64,000 bases of DNA, from positions 310,001 through 374,000 of the forward strand of contig NZ_JAJSDQ010000001.1 in NCBI RefSeq assembly GCF_021272345.1. Reading direction: 5' to 3'. Below, one piece after another: positions 46,411 through 61,327 of the stretch (the stretch's first letter is position 1; each line of letters opens with the position of its first letter). The stretch is from Ornithinimicrobium sediminis. Its GTDB lineage: Bacteria; Actinomycetota; Actinomycetes; Actinomycetales; Dermatophilaceae. Both the position numbers and the translations under genes were made by a program. The notes beneath the pieces are model-generated. The model did no database searches and was not told the origin of the DNA. It was given only the letters and a program-made list of their open reading frames with translations.

Positions 46411-46503
46411 CCCGCGTTGCCAGGGAGATCCCGACGCCCATCCCGCGTTGCCAGGGAGATCCCGACGCCCATCCCGCGTTGCCAGGGAGATCCCGGGAGT
46501 CGG
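46411..46503. repeat. 31-bp tandem repeats, forward orientation, three units
   Basis: Units start at 46411, 46442 and 46473 with the core CCCGCGTTGCCAGGGAGATC. The first two 31-bp units are identical; the third diverges after the core. They lie 9 bp upstream of the MetE-like start. The same core recurs at 57431-57585 and, inverted, at 46576-46660 and 58576-58662. Confidence 0.9.
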
Positions 46504-46575
46504 AGACGAAGGACAGGACCTACAAGTGAAGCGCCACGCCGGCCGGCGGACTGCCTGCCAGCGGCTGTTCGGGAA

Positions 46576-46660
46576 GTGCAGACTCCCTGGCAACGTCTGC
46601 TCCAGCGTCGCAAACCCCCTCGCAACGGCTGTCGTGGGGGTGCAAACCCCCTGGCAACGG
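46576..46660. repeat. 32-bp-period repeats, reverse orientation, three units
   Basis: The inverse core CCCTGGCAACG (or CCCTCGCAACG) occurs at 46585, 46617 and 46649, exactly 32 bp apart, each preceded by a GCAAAC/GCAGACT-like stretch. The last unit ends 1 bp before the stop codon of the alpha/beta-hydrolase gene. Together with the forward units at 46411-46503 it encloses about 80 bp containing GCCGGCCGGC. Confidence 0.9.
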
Positions 46661-48361
46661 TCACTGGTCGCGGACGAGCAGCACCTCGCGGAGACGCTCG
46701 GTGTCGTCGTCCCCCCACCCCTGCGGCTGCAGCACCGCGGCCCAGCCGTTCGCAGGGTCCGCGCCGTACTGGTGGCCGTGGCCCGGGGGCACCCCCTCGG
46801 CGAGCGCCAGGTCCGCGGCGACCTGCAGGAACGTCACGAAGGGGAACCAGCGGGTGCTGGGCAGCACGTCGTAGCCCCGCTCCTCCTCCAGCCAGTCGGG
46901 CTTGCGCACCGCCAGGGAGAAGTCGAACCAGACGACAGGATCCGAGGGGTGCTGGAGGTAGACCACGCGGGTGTCTCCCCACTCCCCCGTCGGACGCCCG
47001 AGGTCGTCGGGCCGGGCGGCGAAGCGCACCGTCCGTCCCTCCTCGTAGACGGGCAGCCACTCCGGTGACCCGGGGTCGCGGTTGTCGACGTACTCCCGCC
47101 ACAGGTCGCTCATGAAGGGCGGTCCCACGAAGAGGGCCCCGTCGATGCGGGCACGCATGTCGGCGGCGCTGCCGAACGGTGTCTCGCCGCCGAAGGACCC
47201 CAGGCTCTCGCCGGCGACGACGAGCAGCGGTCGCTCGTCCTGTGGCAGCTGCTCCCACCGGGCGTAGACGGCCTCGAACAGCGCACGGCCGGCCGCACGG
47301 GCACGGCCCTGGTCGATGAGGAAGGACAGCGGGCTGGGCAGGTAGGAGTACTGCATGCTGACCTGCGCGGTGTCACCGTTGTAGAGGTACTCCAGGGCGA
47401 CGGCCGAGTTCTCGTTGACCCATCCCGTGCCTGTGGTGGTCACGACGGACAGCACCGCACGGTCGAAGCCGCCCGCCCGCTCCAGGTCGTCGACGGCGAG
47501 CTCCGCCGTGCTTTCGATGTCGTCGGCGGAGGCGATGCCGGCATAGGCCCGCACGGGCTGGCTCGCCGGCCTGCCGCTGAATGCCTCGAGGTCGTCCACG
47601 CTGGTGGCCCCCGCCATGAACCTGCGTCCCTGACGCCCCAGTGACTCCCAGGTCACGAGTGACTCAGGGCTGCCGGAGACCTCCGCGGCGGCCGGCTGCG
47701 GCGTGTCCGGCTCGAGCTCGCCGTTGACCTGGGCAAACGACGCGTCGAGAGCACGCACCGCGTTGTCGATGACGACCCCGTTGAGGATGCCGAACGTGAG
47801 GGCCAGCACCGCCACGGCGGCGATGAGCGCCGACACCCGTCGCGGGACGACCCGGGAGACGACGCGGTCCAGCCGGCGGTAGACCCACCGCAACACGCGC
47901 GCCAGCGCGACGACCAGCACGAAGACCAGCAGCGCCACGGCGATGACCACGAACGGGTGGGCCCAGCCGACCAGCTCGACACCCATCAGCTCTCGCAGCT
48001 CGCGCTGCCAGGCCCGGTGTCTCACCAGCACGAGGACGGTGCCGACCGACGCGATGAGGGCGACCGCCAGCGCGACCGGCCGCGAGGCCTCCCCGGGTGC
48101 CGGCCGTTCCAGGAAGAAGCGCCAGGCACGGACGACCACCAGCCCCAGCGCATAGCCGAACGCGGCGGAGGCACCGCCGATGACGCCCTGGAAGAAGCCG
48201 GAGCGCGGCATCAGCGACGGGGTCAGTGAGAGCCAGAAGAAGAGGACCGCCAGGCTGAGCGCGACCAGCGTCGTGACCGTCGGTGACCAGGCGGGGGACG
48301 GCCCGGTGTCCCGCTGTTCCGGAGATGCGTCGGCGCCGCGTGAGCCCTCGTCATCACCCAT
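46661..48361 (-). CDS. polytopic membrane protein with alpha/beta-hydrolase domain
   Basis: 566 residues. The N-terminal 210 residues hold five or so membrane helices (TLVALSLAVLFFWLSLTPSL is the first). The C-terminal domain carries the nucleophile elbow LLVVAGESLGSFGGETPFGS, with VYLQHPSDPVVWFDFSL and the terminal HGHQYGADPANGWA providing likely acid/His positions. This matches the actinobacterial alpha/beta-hydrolase family with a membrane N-domain (DUF2319-type). The function is unknown; a lipid or cell-envelope ester substrate is plausible. ATG at 48361. Confidence 0.8.
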   Translation of the reverse strand: MGDDEGSRGADASPEQRDTGPSPAWSPTVTTLVALSLAVLFFWLSLTPSLMPRSGFFQGVIGGASAAFGYALGLVVVRAWRFFLERPAPGEASRPVALAVALIASVGTVLVLVRHRAWQRELRELMGVELVGWAHPFVVIAVALLVFVLVVALARVLRWVYRRLDRVVSRVVPRRVSALIAAVAVLALTFGILNGVVIDNAVRALDASFAQVNGELEPDTPQPAAAEVSGSPESLVTWESLGRQGRRFMAGATSVDDLEAFSGRPASQPVRAYAGIASADDIESTAELAVDDLERAGGFDRAVLSVVTTTGTGWVNENSAVALEYLYNGDTAQVSMQYSYLPSPLSFLIDQGRARAAGRALFEAVYARWEQLPQDERPLLVVAGESLGSFGGETPFGSAADMRARIDGALFVGPPFMSDLWREYVDNRDPGSPEWLPVYEEGRTVRFAARPDDLGRPTGEWGDTRVVYLQHPSDPVVWFDFSLAVRKPDWLEEERGYDVLPSTRWFPFVTFLQVAADLALAEGVPPGHGHQYGADPANGWAAVLQPQGWGDDDTERLREVLLVRDQ

Positions 48362-48450
48362 GTCAACAGCGTAGTCCCGCAAAGCCGTCGACAGGAGCGC
48401 CCACGTCTGTGGTGAAGCCCACCTCGTCGTGGCAGGCTCGCAGTGGCACA

Positions 48451-54711: not shown

Positions 54712-55277
54712 GCCTGAGGCTCCGTGCCGTCGGAGCGGCCGTCAACGTCACCCTCGCGGCGCGGGCGCGGGGTGGCCACGGACAGCCACGGACCGGGCTC
54801 CTGCTGACCCTCGGGCGGCGCCACACCGGCGTCGCGCTGGGACTTGGCCAGGACGTTCTTGTGCCACAGCTGCACAGCCTGCAGCAGCAGGCCCACGCTG
54901 ATCTGCACCTTCGCCTTGGGGTTCTCGCGCTTGGCGATGATCTGCTCCACGGTGAGCACCAGGGTGCCGCCTGCGATCCCGGCCTTGACGAGGTTCATCC
55001 CCAGGGAGATGTCGTTGCAGGCGTTGAGCCGGGTCGTCAGGTCGTCCGGGACGCTGTCGGAGATCTGCCACTGGCCGAAGGTGCGCATGATGTCGACCTG
55101 GCCCCCCTCCAGCGAGCGCACGAAGAGCTTCTGCCCCTGGGCGGTGAAGGCCACGTCCCCCTGGCCGTCGAGGTCCGGGGCGAACTCCAGGTCCTGGAGC
55201 GCGTCGAGCACGCGGCCCCGCAGAGGGTGCTCCTCCGGAGGCGGTGGGAAGTTGGGCAGGGAGGTGGGATCACTCAT
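54708..55277 (-). CDS. YbjN-domain (type III chaperone-like fold) protein
   Basis: 189 residues. LRGRVLDALQDLEFAPDLDG begins the domain; QGQKLFVRSLEGGQVDIMRT and LNACNDISLGMNLVKAGIAG are typical of the actinobacterial YbjN family, whose function is not established. The C-terminus is a disordered Pro/Arg/Glu tail. ATG at 55277, 47 bp from the divergent glgX start. It is co-transcribed with the crotonase gene (4-bp overlap), which is not an obvious functional partner. Confidence 0.75.
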   Translation of the reverse strand: MSDPTSLPNFPPPPEEHPLRGRVLDALQDLEFAPDLDGQGDVAFTAQGQKLFVRSLEGGQVDIMRTFGQWQISDSVPDDLTTRLNACNDISLGMNLVKAGIAGGTLVLTVEQIIAKRENPKAKVQISVGLLLQAVQLWHKNVLAKSQRDAGVAPPEGQQEPGPWLSVATPRPRREGDVDGRSDGTEPQA

Positions 55278-55324
55278 GTGCCCAACGTACCGAGTCCACG
55301 GCCACCCCACATAAGGTGCGCACC

Positions 55325-57439
55325 ATGAGTGTGGATCCCTCTGCCCGTCGACGTGCCCGCGACACCCCACCCGCGATGGGGGTCTCCCTGACTCCGGACG
55401 GCGCCGAGTTCGCCGTCCTCGCCCGGCACGCCGAGTCCGTGGACCTGTGCCTCTTCGACGACGACGGGGCCGAGCGTCGGGTGCCTCTGCGCCGCCGTGC
55501 CTACGGCATCTGGTGGGACCATGTGCCTGGCGTCGGGCCTGGTCAACGCTACGGCTACCGCGTGCACGGGCCGTGGGCACCGCACGAGGGACATCGGCAC
55601 AACCCCGCCAAGCTGCTGGTCGACCCCTACGCCCGCGCGGTCGACGGCGAGGTCGGCTGGGGTCCGGAGGTCCACGGCCACCAGGTCGACGACCGGTGGA
55701 GCGGCGACGGCACCTCGCGTGACGACCGGGACAGCGCGGCATACGTGCCCCGTTCCGTGGTGCTCGACGACGGCTTCGACTGGTCCGGGGACGAGCGCCC
55801 GTGCGTGCCGCTCAGTGAGACCGTGGTCTACGAGGCGCACGTGCGGGGCCTCACGATGCTGCACCCTGACGTGCCGCCGGAGATCCGCGGCACCTACGCC
55901 GCACTGGGCCATCCGGCGGTGGTCGAGCACCTCCGGTCGCTCGGGGTCACCACCCTGGAGCTGCTGCCGATCCACGCCTTCACCCATGAGCCGCACCTGG
56001 TGCAGCTGGGGCTGACCAACTACTGGGGCTACAACACCCTCAACTTCTTCGCCCCGCATCCCGCGTATGCCGCCGCGAGCGACCCCGCGGAGGTCGTCAC
56101 CGAGGTCAAGAGCGCCATCAAGGCGCTGCACGCCGCCGGCATCGAGGTCGTCCTCGACGTCGTCTACAACCACACCTGCGAGCAGGCCGGTGACCAGGGT
56201 GCGACCCTGTCGTGGCGCGGCCTGGACAACCTGACCTACTACCGCCTCGACGAGCGCGGCTACGACATCGACGTCACCGGCTGCGGCAACACCCTCGACC
56301 TGCGCGAGCCGCTCGTCACCCGCATGGTCCTGGACTCGCTGCGCCACTGGGTCAACGAGTTCCGCGTCGACGGCTTCCGCTTCGACCTGGCGCCGGCCCT
56401 GGCACGCGGCAAGGACGACGCCTACGACCCCGACCACTCCTTCCACGTCGCCCTGCGCACCGACCCCGTGCTCTCGAGCGTCAAGCTCATCGCGGAGCCC
56501 TGGGACGTCGGGGTGCACGGGTGGCGCACCGGGCAGTTCCCTCCGCCCTTCGCCGAGTGGAACGACTGGTTCCGCGACCCGGTCCGCACGTTCTGGCTGA
56601 CCGACGTCGGGCGCGACCTGGACGGCCACCCCGGCCACGGGGTGCGCGAGCTGGCCACCCGCGTGGCCGGGTCGAAGGACCTCTTCGGTCACGAGGACCG
56701 CGGCCCCATCGCGTCGGTCAACTACGTCACCGCGCACGACGGCTTCACGCTGCACGACCTCACGGCATACCTGCACAAGCACAACGAGGCCAACGGCGAG
56801 GCGAACGGCGACGGCCACGGCGACAACCGCTCGTGGAACCACGGGGTCGAGGGCCTCACCCACGACGAGTCCGTGCTGGCGGGTCGACGGCGCTCCGTGC
56901 GCAACCTGCTCGCGACCCTGCTGCTCTCCCCCGGCGTGCCGATGATCACCGCCGGCGACGAGATCGGACGCACCCAGCGCGGCAACAACAACGCGTACTG
57001 CCAGGACAACGAGATCAGCTGGGTCGACTGGGGGCTCGCGCCCTGGCAGGAGAAGCTGCTCGCCGACGCCCGTGCCCTGACCGCCCTGCGCAGGGAGCAC
57101 CCGGTGCTGCGTCCCCGGGACTTCCCGGCCTACCGCCCCGTGCCGGGGCGGGTGCGCCTGCGGTGGTTCGACGAGAGCGGCGAGGTCATGGTCGAGCAGC
57201 AGTGGGTGGACCCGACGCGCCGGCTGGTGCAGGCGCTCTTCGACAGCCGGCACGACGGCGACGAGGCAGGGCAGCCGGTGCTGCTGGTGGTCAACGGCGG
57301 CGTGGACCACGAGGACGTGACGCTGCCGCAGGTGGACGGCATGAGCGACTGGCAGCTGCGCTGGTCCAGCCACCCGGACGACGTCGTGGGCGGCGCCACG
57401 AGTATCACTTTGCTCACCCTCCCCCACCCGCCCGGCTAG
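55325..57439 (+). CDS. glgX: glycogen debranching enzyme GlgX
   Basis: 704 residues, GH13 isoamylase-type. An N-terminal CBM48 domain (GVSLTPDGAEFAVLARHAES) precedes the barrel: region I EVVLDVVYNHTCEQ, nucleophile Asp in FRVDGFRFDLAPALARGK, acid Glu in KLIAEPWDVGVHGWRTG, and YVTAHDGFTLHDLTAYLHKH. It cleaves alpha-1,6 branches of phosphorylase-limit glycogen, so it works with glgP nearby. ATG at 55325. The TAG stop lies inside the first, degenerate copy of a 32-bp repeat array. Confidence 0.95.
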   Translation: MSVDPSARRRARDTPPAMGVSLTPDGAEFAVLARHAESVDLCLFDDDGAERRVPLRRRAYGIWWDHVPGVGPGQRYGYRVHGPWAPHEGHRHNPAKLLVDPYARAVDGEVGWGPEVHGHQVDDRWSGDGTSRDDRDSAAYVPRSVVLDDGFDWSGDERPCVPLSETVVYEAHVRGLTMLHPDVPPEIRGTYAALGHPAVVEHLRSLGVTTLELLPIHAFTHEPHLVQLGLTNYWGYNTLNFFAPHPAYAAASDPAEVVTEVKSAIKALHAAGIEVVLDVVYNHTCEQAGDQGATLSWRGLDNLTYYRLDERGYDIDVTGCGNTLDLREPLVTRMVLDSLRHWVNEFRVDGFRFDLAPALARGKDDAYDPDHSFHVALRTDPVLSSVKLIAEPWDVGVHGWRTGQFPPPFAEWNDWFRDPVRTFWLTDVGRDLDGHPGHGVRELATRVAGSKDLFGHEDRGPIASVNYVTAHDGFTLHDLTAYLHKHNEANGEANGDGHGDNRSWNHGVEGLTHDESVLAGRRRSVRNLLATLLLSPGVPMITAGDEIGRTQRGNNNAYCQDNEISWVDWGLAPWQEKLLADARALTALRREHPVLRPRDFPAYRPVPGRVRLRWFDESGEVMVEQQWVDPTRRLVQALFDSRHDGDEAGQPVLLVVNGGVDHEDVTLPQVDGMSDWQLRWSSHPDDVVGGATSITLLTLPHPPG

Positions 57440-57585
57440 GGAGATCCCGGCCACCCACCCGCGTTGCCAGGGAGATCCCGCGCAACCCACCCACGTTGCC
57501 AGGGAGATCCCGGGCCTCACGCCCGCGTTGCCAGGGAGATCCCGGGCCTCACGCCCGCGTTGCCAGGGAGACCCCGGGGCACCGC
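57431..57585. repeat. 32-bp tandem repeats, forward orientation, five units
   Basis: Full units with the core CCC(G/A)CGTTGCCAGGGAGATC start at 57458, 57490, 57522 and 57554, exactly 32 bp apart; a shortened copy starts at 57431 and contains the glgX stop codon. The stop and last codons of the convergent DUF559-like gene lie in the last two units, so the repeat encodes its C-terminal GVSLATRA. These match the units at 46411-46503 and are inverted relative to 58576-58662. Confidence 0.92.
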
Positions 57586-58502
57586 CAGGCGTCCAGGCGG
57601 TGGTCGCGCGCCTGCGCTGCGTGCCAGGCGTCACGCAGCTTGCCGGTGGCACGTCCCGCGCTGACGTCCTCCTTCCAGATCTCGGCGATGTGCAGGTTCA
57701 TCGCTGCGAACCGTTGGAAGCGATGGGCGTCGGCCTCCCTGGCGCCGTCGATGCCGTGCCAGAAGCCCTGGTACTCCGCGCCGAACCCGGTGAACGGGTC
57801 GAGCAGGTCGATCCGGCCCACGAAGACGCCGAAGCGGTCGTGGACCTCCACGTTGGCCAGCGGGCGCGGCAGGCCGATCGACAGCCAGTGCCAGCGCAGC
57901 TCGCTCTCGGGCACCGACTCCGCGCGGTCGCACATCTCGGGCAGTGCCGCCCGGACACGTCTGAGGCCGTGCAGCCGTCTCAGGGGTCGCACGTAGGCCG
58001 CGAGCTCCCCGGGTGTGACCAGTCCGTGCCGCATCGACAGGTCCAGCATCGCCAGGGCCCGGGCGTCCGTGCGGGCCCACCGTGCCAGGTCGAACGCCGT
58101 CCGTCGCGGGCTCGTGAGCCGGAGCCCGTCGACCTCCGCGACGTCCCCGGACGGCACCGGTGAGTAGCGCACCTTGAGGCCGGCACGTCGGTAGGTCCCC
58201 TCGTCGCGAGGCACGGAGAAGTCGACGGGCACCAACGAGTCGCCGTCGCGCGTCCCGTCCAGGAAGGAGGCGGGCACGCCCCATACGGCAGCCGCGGCCC
58301 ACCCGCTGAGCACACCGCCGGTCGGTGCGACGGCAAGGGCCTGCGCGATCCGCGCCTCCCGCTCGGGCACCTGCGCCTCGCTGACGACCCGGACCCCGTT
58401 CAGGTCTGTCGGGGACTCACAGCGCTCGATCTCGGCCCGACCCCACCCCGCGCGGCGGAGGTCGGCGACCCTTCGTGCCTCATACCCTTCCCATGGCCAC
58501 AT
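57549..58502 (-). CDS. AbiEi/DUF559-like endonuclease-fold protein inside a repeat-flanked cassette
   Basis: 317 residues. The N-terminus (EGYEARRVADLRRAGWGRAE IERCES) is helical, followed by an AbiEi-like middle (GGVLSGWAAAAVWGVPASFL, GLRLTSPRRTAFDLARWART). The C-terminal 110 residues resemble the DUF559/Vsr nuclease fold: Glu in SVPESELRWHWL, Asp in GVFVGRIDLLDPF, and EYQG (FGAEYQGFWHGI) where related proteins have EYDG or ExK. Activity is uncertain. The stop and last residues lie in a 32-bp repeat array, and an inverted array follows its start. It separates glgX from glgP. ATG at 58502. Confidence 0.7.
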   Translation of the reverse strand: MWPWEGYEARRVADLRRAGWGRAEIERCESPTDLNGVRVVSEAQVPEREARIAQALAVAPTGGVLSGWAAAAVWGVPASFLDGTRDGDSLVPVDFSVPRDEGTYRRAGLKVRYSPVPSGDVAEVDGLRLTSPRRTAFDLARWARTDARALAMLDLSMRHGLVTPGELAAYVRPLRRLHGLRRVRAALPEMCDRAESVPESELRWHWLSIGLPRPLANVEVHDRFGVFVGRIDLLDPFTGFGAEYQGFWHGIDGAREADAHRFQRFAAMNLHIAEIWKEDVSAGRATGKLRDAWHAAQARDHRLDAWRCPGVSLATRA

Positions 58503-58575
58503 GGCCCGATCTTGGCGACAACAGCACCGACCCCGCCGAGGCCCTGTGGACAACCACGGGGTCCGGCGGGACCGC

Positions 58576-58662
58576 CGAGCAGAATCCCTGGCAACGCGCC
58601 GCTACCGTGCGCACACTCCCTCGCAACGCGCCGCGGTGGGGCGGAAACTCCCTTGCAACGGG
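58576..58662. repeat. 32-bp-period repeats, reverse orientation, three units
   Basis: The inverse core CCCTGGCAACG, CCCTCGCAACG and CCCTTGCAACG starts at 58586, 58618 and 58650, exactly 32 bp apart. The last unit ends 2 bp before the glgP stop codon. It lies 73 bp upstream of the DUF559-like start and is the mirror of the array at that gene's other end. Confidence 0.9.
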
Positions 58663-61248
58663 TCAGGGGGCGGTGACCAGGCCGAGCTCGGCCACCCCCG
58701 TGAGCCGCTCGTGCTTCGGCAGCACCCGCACGGTCCAGCCCAAGGAGCCGGTGCGCGAGAGCACCACCTCCCCGGTGAACCGGTGCCGCCCGCCCTCGTA
58801 GGTCTCGGCGTGCGCCAGCTCGACGGTCTCCACGTCGGAGAGCTCGTCGTTGTCGCGGGCCCGACCGAAGAGCAGCTGCACCCGCACCTCGTGCGGAGCC
58901 AGCCCGTCCAGCGCGACATAGGCGTGCATCCGCACCCGGTCACCGACCTGCGGGGTGTCGCCGACGCCCTCGGCCTCGACATGGTCGACCCGCAGGTGGG
59001 GCCAGGCCGCGTGGGCCCGAGCCGCGTATGCCGCAAGGTCCCGGGCGCCGGCGAAGCCGCCCTCGCTGACGGCCCAGCCGGCCCGGGCGGCCGGAAGGTA
59101 GAGCTTCTGCGTGTAGTCCTGCACCATCCGGTCGGCCAGGACCTTCGGTCCGAGCGTGCCCAGCGTGTGCTGGATCATGCCCAGCCAGCGCATCGGCAGA
59201 CCCCGCTCGTCACGGTCGTAGAAGGTCGGGACCACCGAGCTCTCGAGCAGGTCGTAGAGGGCGGAGGCCTCGAGGTCGTCGCGGCGCTCGGCGTCCTCCA
59301 CGCCGTCGGCGGTCGGGATGGCCCAGCCGTTCTGGCCGTCGTACCACTCGTCCCACCACCCGTCGAGGATCGACAGGTTCAGCGCACCGTTGAGCGCGGC
59401 CTTCATCCCGGAGGTGCCACACGCCTCGAACGGACGCAACGGGTTGTTGAGCCACACGTCGCACCCCGGGTACAGGCGCTGGGCCATCGCGATGTCGTAG
59501 TTGGGCAGGAACACGATGCGGTCGCGCACCTCGGGGTCGTCGGTGAAGCGCACCATCTCCTGGATCAGTGCCTTGCCCGTGTCGTCGGCGGGGTGGCTCT
59601 TGCCGGCGATGAGCAGCTGCACCGGACGCTGCGGGTCCAGCAGGATCTTCTTCAGCCGCTCGGGGTCGCGGAGCATCAGGGTGAGCCGCTTGTAGGTCGC
59701 ACCTCGACGGGCGAAGCCGATGGTCAGGGCATCCGGGTCGAGCACGTCGTCGACCCAGCCGAGCTCGGCGGAGGTGGACCCGCGGCGCCGCATCGACTTG
59801 CGCAGCCGGGTGCGGGCGTCGGCGACGAGCTGCTCGCGCATCTGGCGCTTGGTCGCCCAGAGCGCCTCGGCGGGCACCTCCTCGACCCGGGACCAGACCT
59901 CGCCGCTGCGGATGGCGTCGGCCCCGAGGTGCTCGACGGCCAGGTCGTAGACCTTGCGGTCCACCCAGGTGCCGGCGTGCACGCCGTTGGTGATCGAGCC
60001 GATCGGCACCTCGGAGGTGTCGAAGCCCGGCCACAGGCCGGCGAACATGCCCCGGCTGACCGCCCCGTGCAGCACGGAGACACCGTTGGCGCGCTGCGCC
60101 AGGCGCATCCCCATCACCGCCATGTTGAAGATGCCCTCGGACCCGCCCTCGTAGGTCTCGGCCCCCAGGGCCAGCAGGTCGTCCACCGGCACACCGGGCA
60201 GCTCGGCGGTCCCGCCGAAGTGCGACCGGATGGCTTCCACGCCGAACCGGTCGATGCCGGCCGGGACGGGGGTGTGCGTGGTGAAGACGGTGCCCGCCCT
60301 TACCGTGCGCAGCGCCTCGTCGACGGACAGCCCGTGCTGCGTGGTGAGCTCGCTGATGCGCTCGATCCCCAGGAAGCCCGCGTGGCCCTCGTTGGTGTGG
60401 TAGACGTCCGGCACGGGGGCTCCGGTGAGCCGCGACCATGCGCGCAGGGCGCGGACCCCACCGATGCCGAGCAGCATCTCCTGCTCCAGCCGCTGGTCCC
60501 CGCCCCCGCCGTAGAGGCGGTTGGTCAGCTCGCGGCGGGAGGCGTCGTTGGTCTCGACGTCCGAGTCGAGCAGCAGCAGCGGGACGCGCCCGACCTGGGC
60601 CCGCCAGACATGGGCCTGCAGACGCCCGCCGGCGGGCATGGCGAGCTCGATGACCACCGGGCTGCCGTCCGCCTCACGCAGCATCGACATGGGCAGGTCG
60701 TCCGGGTCGAGCACGGGGTAGGACTCCTGCTGCCACCCCTCGGCGTTGAGCCGCTGACGGAAGTACCCGCTCTTGTAGAACAACCCGACGCCGACGATCG
60801 GCACACCGAGGTCGGAGGCGCTCTTGAGGTGGTCACCGGCCAGGATGCCCAGGCCGCCGGAGTACTGCGGGAGCACAGCGGTGATGCCGAACTCCGGGGA
60901 GAAGTAGGCGATCGAGGCGGGGACGGCGCCCTCGTCGGCATGGGTCTGCGCCTGCTTCTGGTACCACCGGGGCTCGGTCAGGTAGGCGCGCAGCCCGTCA
61001 CCCGCGGCGTCGACCCGCGCGAGGAAGTCGCTGTCGGCCGCCAGACGCTCCATGTCCGCCGGGGTCAGCCGGCTGAGCATCGTGACCGGGTCGTGGTCGA
61101 CCTCCTCCCACCTCTGCGGGTCGATGCTGCGGAACAGGTCGAGCGTCGGAGGATGCCACGACCAGCGCAGGTTCAGCGCCAGGTCGGACAGAGGGGCCAG
61201 GGTGGGAGGGAGCACGGTGCGGACGTGCAGCCTGCGGATCGCCTTCAC
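58663..61248 (-). CDS. glgP: alpha-glucan (glycogen) phosphorylase with DUF3417 N-domain
   Basis: 861 residues. The N-terminal DUF3417 block (TVLPPTLAPLSDLALNLRWS WHPPTLDLF) is typical of this GT35 subgroup. FSPEFGITAVLPQYSGGLGI LAGDHLKSA begins the catalytic domain, and the PLP lysine region is FEACGTSGMKAALNGALNLS with ILDGWWDEW. It releases glucose-1-phosphate, or in the GlgE context maltose chemistry intermediates, from alpha-glucans. GTG at 61248, with a 79-bp divergent gap to glgE. Confidence 0.93.
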   Translation of the reverse strand: MKAIRRLHVRTVLPPTLAPLSDLALNLRWSWHPPTLDLFRSIDPQRWEEVDHDPVTMLSRLTPADMERLAADSDFLARVDAAGDGLRAYLTEPRWYQKQAQTHADEGAVPASIAYFSPEFGITAVLPQYSGGLGILAGDHLKSASDLGVPIVGVGLFYKSGYFRQRLNAEGWQQESYPVLDPDDLPMSMLREADGSPVVIELAMPAGGRLQAHVWRAQVGRVPLLLLDSDVETNDASRRELTNRLYGGGGDQRLEQEMLLGIGGVRALRAWSRLTGAPVPDVYHTNEGHAGFLGIERISELTTQHGLSVDEALRTVRAGTVFTTHTPVPAGIDRFGVEAIRSHFGGTAELPGVPVDDLLALGAETYEGGSEGIFNMAVMGMRLAQRANGVSVLHGAVSRGMFAGLWPGFDTSEVPIGSITNGVHAGTWVDRKVYDLAVEHLGADAIRSGEVWSRVEEVPAEALWATKRQMREQLVADARTRLRKSMRRRGSTSAELGWVDDVLDPDALTIGFARRGATYKRLTLMLRDPERLKKILLDPQRPVQLLIAGKSHPADDTGKALIQEMVRFTDDPEVRDRIVFLPNYDIAMAQRLYPGCDVWLNNPLRPFEACGTSGMKAALNGALNLSILDGWWDEWYDGQNGWAIPTADGVEDAERRDDLEASALYDLLESSVVPTFYDRDERGLPMRWLGMIQHTLGTLGPKVLADRMVQDYTQKLYLPAARAGWAVSEGGFAGARDLAAYAARAHAAWPHLRVDHVEAEGVGDTPQVGDRVRMHAYVALDGLAPHEVRVQLLFGRARDNDELSDVETVELAHAETYEGGRHRFTGEVVLSRTGSLGWTVRVLPKHERLTGVAELGLVTAP

Positions 61249-61327
61249 GGTGGGAAGGATAGGGGACACGGCTGCAAGACCTTGCACTCCTCGCACACCC
61301 CAGCGCCAAACCGGTAGCGTCTGGGGC

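Follow-up and report, generated by a model that had tools for sequence, protein, structure and literature searches.

Repeats bracketing an AbiEi/restriction-endonuclease-like gene of Ornithinimicrobium sediminis: a possible, hitherto undescribed counterpart of REP-repeat systems

A gene with AbiEi-like features, lying between glgX and a glgP-type phosphorylase gene of Ornithinimicrobium sediminis, is enclosed by mirrored arrays of a repeat with a period of 32 bp, and the question raised by this locus is whether the encoded protein has a dedicated relation to the repeats around it. The locus was studied in a stretch of 64,000 nucleotides (the window; contig NZ_JAJSDQ010000001.1, positions 310,001 to 374,000 of the forward strand), in congeners and in more distant genomes. 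The gene and the repeats were found to be associated: many AbiEi-like loci were bracketed by repeats, bracketing repeats were cognate to repeats dispersed through the same genome, the dispersed arrays were typically anchored at stop codons, and in-frame copies within some coding sequences were missing in relatives. The layout has the look of a counterpart, not described before, to the repetitive extragenic palindrome (REP) systems, in which REPs accompany the gene of a REP-associated tyrosine transposase (RAYT) as a REPtron. We consider it reasonably probable that the locus belongs to a REPtron-like system built on another enzyme, in which a protein with AbiEi and restriction-endonuclease (REase) features recognises its own dispersed repeats.

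The focal locus comprised the following features, the genes (as open reading frames, ORFs) being called with a simple codon model:

55244..57439, + strand: glgX (glycogen debranching enzyme); ORF, NCBIfam TIGR02100 (E 4.7e-258); gene upstream of the forward array, start uncertain
57430..57585, + strand: forward array; 32-bp period, four exact units and one degenerate unit; starts within the glgX stop codon
57549..58502, - strand: AbiEi/REase-like gene; ORF open upstream to TTG 58553; 3' end inside the forward array
58576..58662, - strand: reverse array; three units; 2 nt past the glgP stop, in the gap between glgP and the AbiEi/REase-like gene, on the promoter side of the latter
58663..61296, - strand: glgP-type alpha-glucan phosphorylase; ORF, NCBIfam TIGR02094 (E 6.2e-235); gene upstream of the reverse array

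The mirrored arrays described in the first-pass annotation were recovered. Exact cores CGTTGCCAGGGAG were located on the + strand at 57462, 57494, 57526 and 57558, followed in quality by the fifth, degenerate forward unit, and the three reverse units carried one mismatch each, with cores on the - strand at 58584, 58616 and 58648. Tandem Repeats Finder delimited the forward array to 57438-57582 (period 32, 4.6 copies, score 206) and the reverse array to 58585-58660 (period 32, 2.4 copies, score 89). When up to 2 mismatches were allowed, 20 core matches were counted in the window compared to a shuffle mean of 3.4, and 20 was reached in 0 of 100 shuffles. The contact of the arrays with the neighbouring stop codons was also borne out: the degenerate unit overlaps the TAG that ends glgX (57437-57439), and the reverse array follows the glgP stop after 2 nt. 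NCBIfam agreed with the glgX and glgP assignments. As had been claimed, the end of the gene is made of repeat: it terminates inside the forward array, and the last residues of the protein, CPGVSLATRA, are repeat-encoded, unlike those of 7 aligned orthologs.

The arrays are not private to this gene. The core occurred at about 20 sites of the genome, and the window contains another mirrored pair (46411-46660), overlooked at first pass, whose arms enclose no gene:

46411..46495, + strand: second forward array of the focal repeat family; period 31, three units
46583..46660, - strand: mirror array to 46411..46495; three units; 1 nt past the stop codon that ends gene 46661-48382

In the O. sediminis genome (G000), 31 exact cores were counted versus 0 for a reversed-pattern control, and the two-unit core matched 62 times at these sites, commonly beginning at a stop codon. 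The unit consensus obtained from alignment was CGTTGCyAGGGAG, then a weaker half with a C-rich linker after it, and the units were direct repeats with a period of 31 or 32. Most arrays were oriented like the preceding gene. A same-strand stop lay at -9 to +62 nt in 23 of the 29 own arrays detected in fetched stretches, and at 0-5 nt in 12 of the 29 (20 'misc' rows, L066-L095, partly identical places, were left out of this count). The mirrored pairs mostly reflected convergent genes with one array per gene. Outside this genome, the two-unit core was found in 0 of 30 congeners and once in one other genome (58 genomes searched). A wider contig search for a three-unit own-type pattern returned 14 stray stretches in metagenome-assembled genomes of other phyla, and two scans of viral contigs returned 0 and 1 stretches; a three-unit own-type core match was seen close to the end of viral contig IMGVR_UViG_3300035506_000192 (L162).

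No common structure was found by RNA folding of 7 arrays, with z from -3.4 to +2.8 and below -1 in 1 of the 7, and the focal unit was read as a double-stranded DNA site because the arrays share no common RNA fold. Three helical turns of DNA span 31-32 bp. Three other identities were set aside. An RNA hairpin or intrinsic terminator was rejected as a stable GC hairpin was not shared by the 7 arrays (the U-run was not scored), and a CRISPR-like array was rejected on the spacing of 31-32 and on linkers judged by eye to be alike within one array. The repeat as a donor of stop codons was true for some arrays of the congener G015, where the stop lies in the core, while glgP of G000 ends like its array-free relatives.

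The RAYT analogy, which had seemed refuted once the arrays proved not to be private to the gene, was reinstated by the repeats flanking other AbiEi-like loci. In the flanks of L170-L185 and L254-L273, many tandem or palindromic repeats were present, often on both sides, and their sequence differed by locus kind. The mirrored flank score, taken as the best mirrored match between the 250-nt flanks, reached the cut-off of 20 at 26 of 43 AbiEi-like loci of the genus (25 of 42 when the discovery locus is set aside) and reached 16 at 29 of 43, L181 and L266 having been dropped as the gene was not called at mid-locus. Compared to these loci, only 1 of 227 control draws scored at least 20; the draws comprised 77 genes between convergent neighbours and 150 random genes, and came from 461 genes of G013, G010, G020 and G022 only, repeat draws being possible. 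At a score of at least 16, 5 of the 77 convergent-neighbour genes and 2 of the 150 random genes were counted. The sole control above the cut-off (score 27) was a G013 gene that itself encodes an AbiEi/DUF559 protein overlooked by the search.

The same contrast was obtained with 450-nt windows, a cruder measure than the 250-nt flanks. A mirrored or direct score of at least 20 was reached at 22 of 43 genus loci versus 1 of 42 offset controls, and outside the genus (other genera and classes) at 30 of 42 loci (25 by mirrored score alone) versus 1 of 42 same-locus offset controls. From the outside-genus count, L295 and L300 were dropped because their flanks overlap on short contigs, L322 because of its shortness and L304-L307 as loci of the own genome. 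Tandem repeats were detected in 51 of 82 flanks (period 32 in 20, period 22 in 12) versus 12 of 300 control windows, and palindromes in 23 of 82 flanks versus 1 of 150 controls, after exclusion of flanks below 80 nt and of loci in which no gene was called. Three perfect palindromes had arms of 24, 24 and 25 and spacers of 8, 4 and 18. Ordinary tandem-repeat drift in intergenic DNA, unlinked to the gene, could appeal to the occurrence of tandem repeats in GC-rich intergenic DNA and to the focal core being confined, within the set of genomes searched, to a single species; this explanation is contradicted by the flank-score, tandem and palindrome controls and by the reversed-pattern dispersal controls of 0, and was regarded as extremely improbable. 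As a separate observation in the O. sediminis genome, the AbiEi-like gene of L304 (G000:C7:439400-444100) has long palindromic repeats on both sides, unlike the focal repeat.

Were the repeats beside such genes also those dispersed through the genome? In five further cases the bracketing repeat was the dispersed repeat, three being followed from flank to genome and two from genome to flank. Firstly, a GGTTT repeat stood beside orthologs of the window gene and gave 48-114 matches in each of five congeners. Secondly, a 22-nt pattern taken from the flanks of L172, L173, L175 and L176 matched the respective genomes 27, 15, 18 and 11 times (15 of these 71 matches being the flank arrays themselves); it had a single match in each of G021 and G030 and none in 25 genomes, with a control of 0. 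Thirdly, the palindrome beside ULD52_RS07670 of Collinsella aerofaciens (NZ_OY725717.1, WP_148332043.1) recurred at 23 places in its own record and was not found, at that sensitivity, in the other 72,555 plasmid records; its half-sites numbered 24 in 200 kb versus 0 in the control. The Collinsella protein did not match the AbiEi models and was linked to L174 by tblastn (32% over 56%). The record itself (L326-L329) is labelled a plasmid, yet looks chromosomal because it holds ribosomal protein, secY and RNA polymerase genes. In a plasmid relative from Tsukamurella, a shared flanking repeat was not found. From genome to flank, a second dispersed family of G010, CGACCGAGCGCGTG at 32 bp (searched in G010), brackets the G010 paralog L254, and L272 of G019 has the same core; a dispersed core of G001 (20 matches there, 0-5 in each of 30 other genomes) brackets the paralog L264. 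Also in G010, 13 units of the CGAGCGCG family, spaced with a period of 33, form an array within a called + strand gene (L218:4992-5400).

The GGTTT repeat nearly equals the focal repeat in period and has a different core sequence. The pattern GGTTTYG N23-26 GGTTTYG matched 106 times in G006, 114 in G023, 68 in G018, 61 in G015 and 48 in G010; five other genomes of the genus gave 2-6 matches and 21 gave 0, the control being 0 in all 31. The two matches each in G020 and G009 had a spacing of 33, with one of each in an ORF, and were excluded as arrays. Runs of N had inflated the lag counts for G020 and for part of G022, and these counts were left out. Spread of the GGTTT core beyond the genus was considered and discarded, outside matches being mostly at control level: 118 of 297 genomes of the order matched, mostly 1-4 times, with a control of the same order. 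Two of the outside genomes stood apart, G276 with 22 matches that are part of a longer, different repeat with copies about 93 bp apart, and G170 with 11 matches and a control of 0.

The positions of the GGTTT arrays were sampled in 42 arrays, 20 and 22 from G006 and G015 respectively. A same-strand stop lay within the interval counted in 28 of them, and three positions were orthologous between the two samples. One gene with an internal array site, which we take from its sequence to encode a formate-dehydrogenase-like subunit, was filled in G015, G006 and G023 and apparently degenerate in G018, and no recognisable repeat was found at this site in G010, G008, G019 and G013. Judged from the array positions and from this comparison of filled and empty sites across congeners, the repeats appear to behave like small inserting elements strongly biased to 3' ends. 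Two orthologs named XdhA-like from sequence, L113 (G006) and L122 (G015), have antisense repeat units as the coding sequence of their C-terminal ends.

Close orthologs of the window gene, all adjoining glgP, were present in 8 of 31 genus genomes. The gap between glgP and the gene, on the promoter side, carried an array in 8 of 8, and because of this the gene cannot be said to occur without repeats in most relatives, the outcome at which the first-pass annotation would have given up its reading. In the glgP tree, the eight genomes were interleaved with G013, G022 and G020 (G020 and G022 being long branches of unsure place), which are without the glgP-linked gene and such arrays, save a decayed two-unit relic (400 kb of G013). 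The window protein shared 47-50% identity with its orthologs compared to 76-78% for glgP, and between G018 and G023 the identity was 96% in glgP and 65% in the AbiEi/REase-like protein, which evolves fast. The proposal that array subtype is set by protein group and not by species was only partly supported.

The constancy of the promoter-side array would also be expected if the repeats were selected AbiEi-type binding sites, serving as an operator of the gene's own promoter and, at 3' ends, as terminator, insulator or nucleoid sites, without being moved by the protein. Published AbiEi proteins autoregulate through 23-bp repeats in their own promoter (PMC7319586). In the same direction point the strict phasing of the GGTTT units (32 being the spacing for 51 of the 53 cases from G006 and G015), the exact start at stop codons together with the frequent convergent neighbours (counted without a genome-wide background), and the inconsistent RNA fold, which makes a DNA site likelier than an RNA hairpin. 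Fixed binding sites fit less well with the in-frame copies in enzymes, which are absent from close relatives and resemble insertions; the turnover of the core between species at dozens of sites is hard to obtain without a copying process, and sites on the downstream side are unnecessary for autoregulation. This explanation was judged unlikely, though it retains appreciable weight.

The convergent setting bears on a further explanation, namely that the repeats spread by an unrelated route and the AbiEi/REase genes are cargo landing in repeat-rich sites between convergent genes. The paralogs were frequently located between convergent genes, the second mirrored pair in the window holds no gene, and a broken transposase, which we presume from its sequence to be IS481-like, lies between mirrored own-type arrays at L024:4618-5603 (G000:C14). 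Such hitch-hiking would leave unexplained that bracketing is rare among control genes between convergent neighbours, that repeat types differ by gene, with two genes of G010 accompanying two dispersed families, and that the orthologs of the glgP-linked gene in 8 species each stand beside the local repeat type of their genome. It was considered quite improbable.

What kind of protein would recognise the repeats? The window protein matched AbiEi models only (PADLOC AbiEi, 8.8e-11; Pfam AbiEi_1, E 0.021, below the cut-off). Of the label DUF559/AbiEi-like given at first pass, only the AbiEi part is matched by the window protein itself, which has no direct Pfam DUF559 match; the DUF559/REase matches come from 2 of 9 aligned family members. 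Paralogs matched AbiEi_4, MTES_1575 and DUF559, one of them with 7.2e-10 for MTES_1575 and 1.9e-5 for DUF559 (Pfam), and MTES_1575 has been described as a Vsr REase (PMC3710099). The family profile matched PDB 3hrl, an endonuclease-like protein, with E 0.0022, and R236, D238, E249 and G252 were invariant across the 9 aligned members. No transposase model was matched in the Pfam search of the window protein and paralogs. A single-sequence structure model of the protein had a mean pLDDT (predicted local distance difference test) of 41.9 and was unusable. AbiEi/REase-type proteins are frequent in Actinomycetota: they were matched in 43 of 119 sampled genomes, with up to 14 per genome.

Several results weigh against the REPtron-like reading. 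The score cut was missed by 17 of the 43 loci of the genus and by 12 of the 42 from outside it, and among five more paralog loci of the own genome only L304 had palindromes and L010 a weaker match, L305-L307 having none. Directly on the far side of the gene, an array was present in only 3 of the 8 orthologs (G000, G023 and G008); that of G019 sits past a small called ORF, and the next far-side array is about 1.4-1.5 kb off in G006 and G015. Among the 42 sampled GGTTT arrays, 8 lay within coding sequences whose frame they leave open (antisense for 7, sense for 1), and 6 had neither a called stop nearby nor a surrounding coding sequence. The glgP-linked gene co-occurs with GGTTT- or own-type arrays in 8 of 31 genomes, which is suggestive of a link, yet confounded by descent, and the match of array subtype to protein group was partial, G023 being mixed among the 5 units seen. 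As for the enzyme, only 2 of the 9 aligned proteins gave REase-type Pfam matches (Vsr/DUF559/MTES_1575, in the C-terminal domain), and ExDG, the motif of the other aligned members, is replaced by EYQG in the glgP lineage, the window protein included. Because of this replacement nuclease activity in the glgP lineage is doubtful, and the nuclease there may be dead.

The known system closest in layout is REP/RAYT with its relative TIRYT. The tnpAREP gene is mostly single copy with REPs genome-wide (PMC8266576), RAYT gene flanks hold REPs or other inverted repeats, REPs between convergent ORFs lie mostly within 20 bp of 3' ends and some REPs are intragenic (PMC3733652), and where several REP families coexist the genes are repeat-specific (PMC3733652, PMC8266576, PMC3116915). 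The present system is alike in having a usually single-copy gene beside cognate, genome-wide dispersed repeats, as in a REPtron, in the placement of repeats near 3' ends, between convergent genes and sometimes within genes, and in the gene-specific families where several coexist. Differently, the RAYT enzyme is a Y1 HUH tyrosine transposase and its repeats are palindromic and GTAG-tagged, whereas AbiEi and REase-type features are found here and the focal units are direct repeats in phased arrays, with neither a GTAG tag nor a hairpin that is consistent; some paralog repeat families are palindromic (the tag was looked for in the focal repeat only). The RAYT comparison made at first pass thus survives in the bracketing by own repeats above controls and in the cognate dispersal, and fails for the transposase and the GTAG hairpin.

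The AbiE type IV toxin-antitoxin system may share the AbiEi-type module, and its published 23-bp sites compare with the unit periods of 22 and 32 bp here. According to PMC7319586, the AbiEi site consists of two inverted repeats of 23 bp with a 3-bp spacer, and the 23-bp repeats recognised by Rv2827c have a spacer of 13 bp within each pair; the two spacers differ by one helical turn. In AbiE, an AbiEii toxin gene is present; none was found beside the window gene, and because its neighbours are glgX and the glgP-type phosphorylase gene the focal system is not AbiE. The family here moreover has an extra C-terminal REase-type domain, and its repeats are on both sides at many loci and genome-dispersed. 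To the DUF559/MTES_1575 Vsr-type REases the family is linked by the paralog Pfam matches and the 3hrl profile match, the motif of the glgP lineage being altered. No report of DUF559/MTES_1575 or AbiEi-REase proteins with cognate flanking repeats was found in the literature searched, which included few subscription journals and no bioRxiv.

In the REPtron-like system proposed here, a single gene would encode an AbiEi-type DNA-binding module fused to a domain of the Vsr/DUF559-type restriction-endonuclease fold. Its cognate site would be about 22 bp long. In the focal family the sites are tandem and helically phased at 31-32 bp; other families have a tandem spacing of 22 or 32 bp, or else an inverted pair (palindrome). 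Copies stand beside the gene and are dispersed, typically from the stop codons of other genes onward and often between convergent genes, and the repeat families vary between species and between coexisting genes of one genome. Each unit is predicted to be bound by one AbiEi module, because the 22- and 32-bp periods and the 24-25 bp palindrome arms fit the published 23-bp AbiEi sites. By conjecture, the nuclease domain would cut or nick DNA and so help to copy or maintain the repeats, as is thought for RAYTs; nuclease-driven copying is thus putative. More tentatively still, and with more doubt than confidence, an Actinomycetota-wide AbiEi-REase class of non-transposase repeat-propagating systems can be envisaged, several per genome, in which 22-25 bp sites would be copied to 3' ends via nuclease-induced repair and protein and site would co-evolve quickly.

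If these proteins do recognise their repeats and propagate or manage them, a class of unexplained bacterial repeats would gain a dedicated protein. It would also suggest that REP-like systems have several origins, with unrelated enzymes, and the spread of such repeats and their retention by the hosts would become testable in actinobacteria.

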